Assembly: GCF_002216775.1 (NCBI RefSeq)
Contig: NZ_CP022315.1
Location: 2,356,001 to 2,420,000, forward strand
Reading direction: 5' to 3'
Length of the DNA: 64,000 bases
Origin: Virgibacillus phasianinus
GTDB lineage: Bacteria; Bacillota; Bacilli; Bacillales; Amphibacillaceae
Positions 36,749 through 37,724 of this stretch are shown in pieces; positions within the stretch are counted from its first letter, which is position 1; each line of letters opens with the position of its first letter. Below the pieces are notes generated by a model. It worked only from the letters and a program-made list of their open reading frames with translations, was not told the DNA's origin and did no database searches. The position numbers and the translations under genes are program-made.

Positions 36749-36987
36749 AAAAAATGTAATTAAAATAGTACTAATAGACTAATCCGCGGACTATAATTAA
36801 TTATAAGGGTGTTAAAAACTGACTTTGGGGTTTTATATACAATCTAGGCAAAAATGCTTATTTTGGGAGTGACTTTTCGAAATTTTAAGTATATAATGAG
36901 CGTAATATACAAAACTAGTTGCTTTTAGACAAAACAAGACACCCAATACCAATTCTACTTATAGTAAAATAGTAGTATAAAAAATTG

Positions 36988-37085
36988 TTTCCTCAGAAAA
37001 GGGCAAACCTACTGAAAAGTACGGACGCAAAACCACAGACCTAAGGCGAACTCTGCTATGGTGGCTGGGTTACGAAGGGAAAAAA
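36988..37085 (+). ncRNA. Cyclic-di-GMP-I (GEMM-I) riboswitch
   Basis: The aptamer core is seen directly: GGGCAAACC (37001-37009), a TACT-GAAA-AGTA hairpin with a GNRA tetraloop (37010-37021), CGGACGCAAAACC (37022-37034), CAGACCTAA, a second hairpin strand CTCTG...TATGGTGGC, and CTGGGTTACGA. This follows the Vibrio Vc2 GEMM-I consensus step by step. P1 can form between TTTCC (36988-36992) and GGGAAA (37077-37082). No terminator lies between aptamer and gene. The ribosome site GGCGGGGG (37086-37093) sits right after P1, so translational control of sinI is likely. Confidence 0.88.
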
Positions 37086-37099
37086 GGCGGGGGCTAACA

Positions 37100-37231
37100 A
37101 TGATAAAAGTGGTGAAGGAAACAGGTCTTGATTGTGAATGGGTTGAGTTGCTGCAGGAAGCAAAGAGCATCGGAATAACAGTAGAGGAGGTTCGAATGTT
37201 TCTTTGCAAAACACTGGAAGAAGAGAGATAG
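37100..37231 (+). CDS. sinI: SinI-like anti-repressor
   Basis: This 43-aa protein matches the SinR-binding part of SinI: LDCEWVELLQEAKSIGITVEEVRMFL corresponds to the two helices that pair with the C-terminal helices of SinR. It lacks a DNA-binding domain. The ATG follows GGCGGGGG, which sits immediately after the c-di-GMP aptamer. In B. subtilis SinI sequesters SinR and so releases matrix genes. sinR starts 73 bp downstream. Here the synthesis of SinI appears to be set by a c-di-GMP-sensing leader. Confidence 0.88.
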   Translation: MIKVVKETGLDCEWVELLQEAKSIGITVEEVRMFLCKTLEEER

Positions 37232-37304
37232 AAATTAAAAATGTGCTTAATATAGAACCACACACTTTTTTGTGATATAATCACTCTGAAGGTGGGTGTG
37301 CGTT

Positions 37305-37634
37305 TTGATCGGTGAAAAAATTAAACAACTGCGCCAAGATAAAAAAATGTCCATATCTGAACTTGCGGAGAAAGCTGGTGTAGCTAAATCATACTTAAGC
37401 TCTATAGAACGCAATCTCCAGTCAAATCCGTCAATCCAATTTATTGAGAAAATAGGTGCTGTATTAGGTGTCACTGTAAATGATATACTGCGCGAGGATC
37501 AAGCAAATGCAATAGACCAACTTGATGGTGAATGGTTGAAAATAGTGCAGGAAGCAATGGAATCAGGAGTTACAAAGGAACAGTTCAAAGAATACCTCGA
37601 GTTTAATAAATGGAGAAAAAAACAGGATAACTAA
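37305..37634 (+). CDS. sinR: SinR, biofilm/competence master regulator
   Basis: This 109-aa transcriptional repressor has an N-terminal XRE helix-turn-helix (MSISELAEKAGVAKSYLSSIE ... NPSIQFIEKIGAVLGV, residues 14-60). Its C-terminal SinI-like oligomerisation helices are LDGEWLKIVQEAMESGVTKEQFKEYLEFNKWRKKQ. The match to B. subtilis SinR runs along the whole length. The TTG at 37305 is chosen because it aligns with the MIGxxIKQ start and has GAAGGTGG before it. A TATAAT at 37275-37280 may give sinR its own promoter. A good terminator follows. Confidence 0.93.
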   Translation: MIGEKIKQLRQDKKMSISELAEKAGVAKSYLSSIERNLQSNPSIQFIEKIGAVLGVTVNDILREDQANAIDQLDGEWLKIVQEAMESGVTKEQFKEYLEFNKWRKKQDN

Positions 37635-37643
37635 TTTTGTCTT

Positions 37644-37672
37644 GACCGTAGTGCTGAACCAGCATACGGTTT
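37644..37672 (+). terminator. Terminator after sinR
   Basis: CCGTA with TACGG and the inner TGCTG with CAGCA form one stem, followed by TTTTTT. Confidence 0.88.
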
Positions 37673-37724
37673 TTTACTTTTGCGATATTTGCACAGTTGC
37701 AGTTGATTTAAAATACCACAAACC

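Follow-up and report, generated by a model that had tools for sequence, protein, structure and literature searches.

In Virgibacillus phasianinus, a c-di-GMP-I aptamer lies directly before sinI, which is followed on the same strand by sinR (Table 1). The locus is part of a 64,000-nucleotide stretch of DNA (genome positions 2356001–2420000), here called the window, whose numbering is used for all coordinates below. A sequence-only reading of this DNA had proposed the aptamer and its core elements, and both were borne out. The covariance search gave a match to RF01051 (c-di-GMP-I) that covers the full model (1–87) with 71.7 bits, against a gathering score of 35, and an E value of 4.4e-12 (Rfam cmscan); the elements GGGCAAACC, a GAAA tetraloop, GGACGCAAA, and GGGTTAC were all found in it. 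No Rfam family besides RF01051 reached its gathering score in the 64-kb window, and no second RF01051 match at E ≤ 0.001 was found in the whole genome (one contig, 4,071,214 bases).

The same reading had identified the next genes as those of a 43-residue SinI and of SinR, in agreement with the profile matches in Table 1 and with a sequence search of solved structures, in which the window SinR matched the B. subtilis SinR chain of 1b0n (E 1.1e-38) and the window SinI matched the B. subtilis SinI chain of that entry (chain B; E 2.8e-4). With a PF08671 score above the cut-off and with sinR adjoining, the small protein is probably a SinI anti-repressor, and we predict that it binds SinR. For the candidate sinI promoter, the motif AGTAnnAT was found within 60 nt 5′ of the aptamer in 34 of the 57 aptamer-bearing loci of the V. 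phasianinus family (family loci, see below), compared with 2.4 ± 1.6 after letter shuffling.

Table 1. Features of the sinI–sinR locus, in window coordinates (SD, Shine–Dalgarno sequence)
Feature	Position	Strand	Basis or details
Candidate sinI promoter −10, TAAAAT within AGTAAAAT	36965..36970	+	Motif conservation
Switching 5′ strand AUUGUUUCCUC	36984..36994	+	Two alternative pairings (P1 3′ strand, or SD and start codon)
c-di-GMP-I aptamer	36992..37077	+	RF01051; pocket G37002, A37029, C37073; GAAA loop 37014–37017
P1 3′ strand GGGAAA	37077..37082	+	Sequence, fold model
sinI SD GGCGGGGG	37086..37093	+	Sequence; G-rich SD at the same place in family loci
sinI, predicted anti-repressor of 43 aa	37100..37231	+	ATG 37100; PF08671 44.5 bits, cut-off 31.4
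Inverted repeat predicted to hide the sinR SD	37258..37303 (arms approx. 37258–37267 and 37292–37303)	+	Duplex and covariation tests
Extended −10 TGATATAAT, sinR promoter candidate	37273..37281	+	Motif conservation
sinR, HTH repressor with SinI-like C-terminal domain	37305..37634	+	TTG start; HTH_3 and SinI matches
Terminator-like hairpin 3′ of sinR	37651..37675	+	Terminator scan

We take the pocket positions G37002, A37029, and C37073 to be G20, A47, and C92 in Vc2 numbering, and on this assignment all three ligand-contact bases are kept in the window. A departure from the consensus follows directly after the last of them, where G37074 replaces the second C of the 3′ “ACC” (position C93). The P1 closing pair beside the pocket is presumably G14–C93, a pair that we take to be common but not universal among RF01051 members; in the window, G36996 and G37074 stand at these places, so that the first P1 pair is lost. 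C93 is kept in 48 of the 57 family aptamers and in 56 of 57 aptamers of other families. Since the structure line of the Rfam model lacks P1, the closing pair was not counted as class-defining. Beyond a 3 × 3 internal loop, P1 of the window can still form a 6-bp helix (36988–36993 with 37077–37082). Judged by its sequence, the window element is a c-di-GMP-I riboswitch by class and is expected to bind c-di-GMP.

The change at C93 could also mean that the aptamer is real but degraded or insensitive in V. phasianinus and that sinI is set by its promoter, through Spo0A, under whose control the B. subtilis gene stands (PMC8876208). An 0A-box-like TGnCGAA occurs in six of the 57 upstream regions, compared with 2.3 ± 1.5 in shuffled ones, which points toward promoter control and is too weak for claiming Spo0A boxes as a shared input. 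We consider degradation improbable: the score lies far above the cut-off, G20, A47, and C92 are intact, both alternative helices described below can be formed in the window, and the aptamer of G001, the only other congeneric genome compared, scores 72.2 bits with C93 kept.

GEMM-Ib cGAMP riboswitches share the fold of c-di-GMP-I, and A at position 20 goes with cGAMP recognition in GEMM-Ib. The window differs from them in keeping G at this position, and cGAMP specificity of its aptamer was rejected on that ground. Elsewhere in the family, A at position 20 occurs in nine of the 57 aptamers, namely in all eight of genus g38 (L046, L065, L071, L072, L074, L078, L101, and L107, several of them from Lentibacillus) and in L096 (g13). 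C92 is U in 13 of the 57 (L094, L044, L043, L047, L093, L080, L095, L103, L082, L053, L097, L083, and L073), never together with G20A in the family; this change may tune affinity or ligand choice.

The end of the aptamer and the sinI ATG are 22 nt apart in the window and 11–27 nt apart in the family loci for which the script called a start (54 loci). No terminator-like site was found between aptamer and sinI (37077–37100) in the window. A short gap without a terminator leads us to expect control at translation initiation, which the sequence-only reading had suggested, and the closeness of the SD to the aptamer is likewise that of a translational riboswitch. Transcriptional attenuation by a terminator before sinI has a precedent in Bc1, a c-di-GMP-I element of the Bacillus cereus group whose platform has two terminators (PMC11218506). 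At sinI, attenuation is very improbable, given that the gaps in the family loci leave no room for it and that the window lacks a terminator-like site there.

Spread of the arrangement and its target gene

The family survey covered 146 genomes, 97 with a SinI match and 113 with an RF01051 match. We examined 92 SinI/SinR loci, which came from 91 of the 97 SinI-positive genomes (all except G066, G093, G101, G136, G142, and G144). The aptamer search model, R1, was built from 29 aptamers, three of which were sinI aptamers (L001, L002, and L020). The sinI profile rests on the sinI genes of the 57 family loci with an aptamer, so that divergent sinI genes may be missed.

An aptamer precedes sinI in 57 of the 92 family loci, from 22 of the 46 sampled genera, and these aptamers score 53.7–92.8 bits, except for L064 at 19.4 bits. 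The 35 aptamer-less loci fall into 21 with a sinI-like ORF (that of L081 is atypical) and 14 where the search detected no sinI. The element at L064 (1069–1151; Ornithinibacillus halotolerans L163) is a decayed sinI aptamer that may be in the course of being lost.

Across the order, a SinI match was obtained in 148 of 199 genomes. The non-family loci were taken from the 90 best-scoring of about 143 SinI-matching genomes outside the family and represent 32 families. They contain 58 aptamer matches in 56 of the 90 loci; 57 of these matches form aptamer–sinI pairs (55 loci, 24 of the 32 families), with the aptamer on the same strand as sinI and 19–73 nt before the start of the SinI profile match. 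The remaining match, at L283, lies 311 nt from sinI and was left out of the pair counts, as was a second match in L097. The other 34 loci include 18 with a sinI-like ORF and 16 without. Over the whole sample, the aptamer accompanies sinI at 112 of 152 sinI loci, being missing directly before the gene at 21 of 78 in the family and 19 of 74 elsewhere. The aptamer–sinI arrangement is order-wide, not local. Among named relatives, the best 80 of 524 gave an aptamer match in 57 loci (only a weak one in L163), in genera that include Oceanobacillus, Virgibacillus, Lentibacillus, Sediminibacillus, Aquibacillus, Ornithinibacillus, and Sutcliffiella; placement was judged there mostly by position before sinR, and the set shares many genomes with the family and order samples, so that the counts are not additive.

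The aptamer is tied to sinI rather than to sinR. It was found at none of the loci without a detected sinI (0 of 14 in the family and 0 of 16 in other families). At 14 of the 55 non-family aptamer loci, sinI and its aptamer lie together on the strand opposite sinR (L213, L223, L224, L225, L237, L242, L245, L247, L261, L266, L269, L276, L278, and L298), and an opposite-strand sinI with an aptamer is also seen in loci L189, L194, and L198 of the named relatives. In Sporosarcina globispora, the inverted sinI forms a separate ORF that follows the aptamer, and Bacillus dakarensis and Bacillus sp. EB01 resemble this layout when inspected by eye. Because the aptamer stays with sinI when sinI is inverted relative to sinR, we regard sinI as its target. 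Loci L211 and L214 carry two sinI genes in tandem, each with its own c-di-GMP-I aptamer.

Pairing of the sinI SD and the predicted direction of control

Two kinds of pairing that could hide the sinI SD were found. In type A, the aptamer-closing strand CU.CCUGAAAUAC, which is the P1 3′ strand, pairs with GUAUUUUAGGAG, a stretch that includes the SD. This hairpin occurs in 32 of the 57 non-family pairs, from 14 families, and in only two of the 57 family loci, both of which are type B too. In the alignment of the 32 type A rows, 97% of cells are paired, a percentage that is favored by the choice of rows because they fold this way; pairing falls to 38–60% when the partner is slid by 1–3 columns. 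The hairpin covaries, with double-sided changes in five pairs compared with 0.7 in shuffles (0/500), and swapping the halves between loci weakened the duplex from −11.8 to −10.7 ± 0.2 (0/2000). At L284, judged by eye, all three strands are changed: the closing strand reads CCAAU, the 5′ strand of P1 reads AUUG, and the SD strand reads AUUGG.

In type B, a C-rich P1 5′ strand (UUCCUC, CCUCC, or CUUCUUC) complements the SD (GGGGGA, GGAGG, or GGAGGAAG). This type was found in 44 of the 57 family loci, the window included, and in 21 of the 57 non-family pairs, where it is seen in 18 of the 25 that do not have type A and in just 3 of the 32 type A pairs. Both types are present in 3 non-family pairs, A only in 29, B only in 18, and neither in 7; by a Fisher test that treats related loci as independent, with kinship uncorrected, the types avoid each other (p = 1.2e-6). 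At the thresholds used, 13 of the 57 family loci also fit neither type. The leader:SD duplex of type B in the family has a native value of −6.9 kcal/mol, compared with −4.2 for shuffled leaders (0/300), and when leaders were swapped among family loci, 1 or 5 of 2000 swaps were as good as the native mean. A genus's own SD was better than the SDs of other genera in only 12 of 22 genera, and in the non-family pairs without type A the swap test was not passed (308 of 2000 leader swaps reached the native value). Type B appears to rest on conserved complementarity more than on covariation, which is modest.

Bound and free states were modeled with partition functions. Fixing P2/P3 alone gave no net SD change in the family (unpaired probability 0.275 to 0.290, 29 of 57 loci up), a result explained by the ability of the 5′-strand:SD pairing to enclose the aptamer, so that only a forced P1 separates the states; the P1-forced bound state was adopted after this result had been seen. 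With P1 forced, the SD was unpaired with a mean probability of 0.54, up from 0.26, in 48 of the 57 family loci; the other nine, in which no three consecutive P1 pairs were found, were left out of this mean. The probability rose by more than 0.1 in 36 of the 48 loci and fell in three. Longer flanks weakened the effect (0.31 to 0.46, 24 up, 9 down).

The window sequence AUUGUU-CCUC is complementary to GGGG-..-AACAAU, and a duplex of the two would take in the SD and the start codon (36984–36989 with 37096–37101 and 36991–36994 with 37090–37093). This pairing and P1 are mutually exclusive and, in short transcripts, nearly isoenergetic: in RNAs whose 3′ end lies close to the start codon, the sequestered fold has −27.7/−27.8 kcal/mol compared with −26.3/−26.8 kcal/mol for the P1 fold, and the SD is unpaired with a probability of 0.45–0.48 in the free state and 0.79–0.80 with P1. 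Adding 50 nt of coding sequence left the accessibility unchanged (0.80 free compared with 0.77–0.80 with P1), another pairing of the same strand winning in the ligand-free state. Switching of the window copy is plausible in these models, with a weakened P1 and a predicted switch that depends on fold context.

In c-di-GMP-I riboswitches, the ligand stabilizes P1. In types A and B alike, P1 formation competes with SD hiding, and the ligand should therefore turn translation on. According to this model, the strand 5′ of the window aptamer (AUUGUUUCCUC) would, when no ligand is present, pair with the SD and the start region of sinI and block initiation. When c-di-GMP is bound, the aptamer would fold, P1 would form (UUUCCU with GGGAAA), and the 5′ strand would be engaged, leaving the SD free. 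The other P1 strand would play this part in 14 of the 24 further families that have the arrangement: there, CCUGAAAUAC would be bound to GUAUUUUAGG(AG) of the SD as long as P1 does not take it up. The SinI made would then bind SinR, and matrix genes would be derepressed. We consider it likely that the riboswitch in the sinI leader controls translation and that c-di-GMP turns SinI synthesis on, with derepression of SinR targets to follow.

The opposite direction, in which ligand-bound P1 beside the SD blocks the ribosome and c-di-GMP lowers SinI, would fit the P1 3′ strand ending 4–7 positions before the SD, as well as the long-context fold of the window, where P1 formation brings no gain in SD accessibility. 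Such an OFF switch is nevertheless unlikely, given that in type A the P1 3′ strand itself is the partner of the SD, so that P1 and the sequestering hairpin exclude each other, and that forced P1 opens the SD in most of the 48 modeled loci and closes it in few. The sequence-only reading had left the direction undecided, which was too cautious, as the comparison of more than 100 loci suggests an ON switch.

The sinR region, c-di-GMP proteins, and known systems

The motif TGnTAnnnT is present in all 47 script-found sinI–sinR intergenic regions of the family (10 of the 57 loci gave no script-called sinR start and were left out of this set), and TATAAT is invariant in the 45 rows of alignment A8 of family loci. 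An inverted repeat flanks this candidate sinR promoter, which occupies the loop, and the sinR SD lies in the 3′ arm of the repeat. In 45 distinct regions, the native arms have −14.4 kcal/mol, compared with −11.2 ± 0.4 when swapped (0/2000). The arms contain 41 cells with two-sided changes compared with 21.9 in shuffles (0/500); doubly changed pairs (6 compared with 5.9) and pair types were not more numerous than after shuffling. A transcript that begins at the sinR promoter would be without the 5′ arm, and read-through RNA would contain it and have its sinR SD hidden. In such a model, the inverted repeat and the separate promoter would keep SinR production independent of sinI transcription, and with sinR under its own promoter the SinI:SinR ratio would follow c-di-GMP.

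The V. phasianinus genome has genes for two GGDEF proteins, whose GGDEF/GGEEF motifs are intact, for one HD-GYP protein, and for four TasA/camelysin-type proteins; no EAL match and no PilZ match were found in it. A c-di-GMP-II riboswitch (60.9 bits) is present in the same genome at L300 687–771 (G000:C1:2689686–2689770), about 30 nt before a prepilin gene of a type IV pilus cluster (gene names assigned by eye). The c-di-GMP system is small, and of the receptor families searched (RF01051, RF01786, and PilZ) the genome has only the two RNAs. Relatives such as G040, G030, and G061 have up to 19 c-di-GMP-I aptamers per genome, compared with one here. The earlier proposal that c-di-GMP is wired to the SinI:SinR ratio without a protein receives support from this inventory, the regulation itself being predicted.

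An element of this kind had been listed once before, contrary to the statement in the sequence-only reading that no description of the arrangement was known. Table 4 of a 2015 paper on Bacillus methanolicus MGA3 contains the entry (c-di-GMP)-sinI (locus BMMGA3_08510), and one clause names it a putative riboswitch in the sinI 5′-UTR, as in the window (PMC4342826). The elements in that table were found in RNA-seq-mapped 5′-UTRs of >100 nt, so that the aptamer is transcribed there; unlike the present analysis, the entry itself comes without a mechanism, a direction, or a test of conservation or target (PMC4342826). No other description of a c-di-GMP riboswitch on sinI was found among the matches listed from the open-licence literature, with subscription papers outside the search. 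The spread, the target, the two platforms, and the predicted direction had no counterpart among these matches.

The elements Bc1, Bc2, and Bc3–5 of the B. cereus group and Vc1 of Vibrio cholerae belong to the same aptamer class and precede other genes; Bc1 uses terminators (PMC11218506), whereas the window is predicted to hide the SD. Hiding of the SD by either P1 strand sets the present loci apart from the characterized c-di-GMP-I switches as their abstracts describe them. In Bacillus thuringiensis, c-di-GMP raised via CdgF was accompanied by higher sinI expression, in parallel with more biofilm, which agrees with the predicted ON direction; the two mentions of riboswitches in that source concern other genes (PMC7793685).

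B. subtilis resembles V. phasianinus in its SinI and SinR proteins and differs from it in that its genome has no RF01051 match. None of the 14 control genomes gave an RF01051 match, and only B. subtilis among them gave a SinI match. The gene order sinI–sinR is the same in B. subtilis as in the window. SinI/SinR is the textbook biofilm switch from B. subtilis, where the known action of c-di-GMP is mainly on motility, via PilZ proteins. We give even chances to a broader view, in which SinI/SinR of the order was ancestrally a c-di-GMP-sensing RNA circuit with two interchangeable SD-hiding strategies and an insulated sinR, and B. subtilis, lacking the aptamer, is a derived exception; “ancestral” is an inference here.

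The gene sinI releases the brake on biofilm formation, and c-di-GMP probably switches its translation on. If the relatives translate sinI only at high c-di-GMP, the second messenger would have direct control over the decision to make matrix, and B. subtilis, the model, would be atypical. More than 100 species would offer testable natural c-di-GMP sensors, with two solutions to SD hiding.
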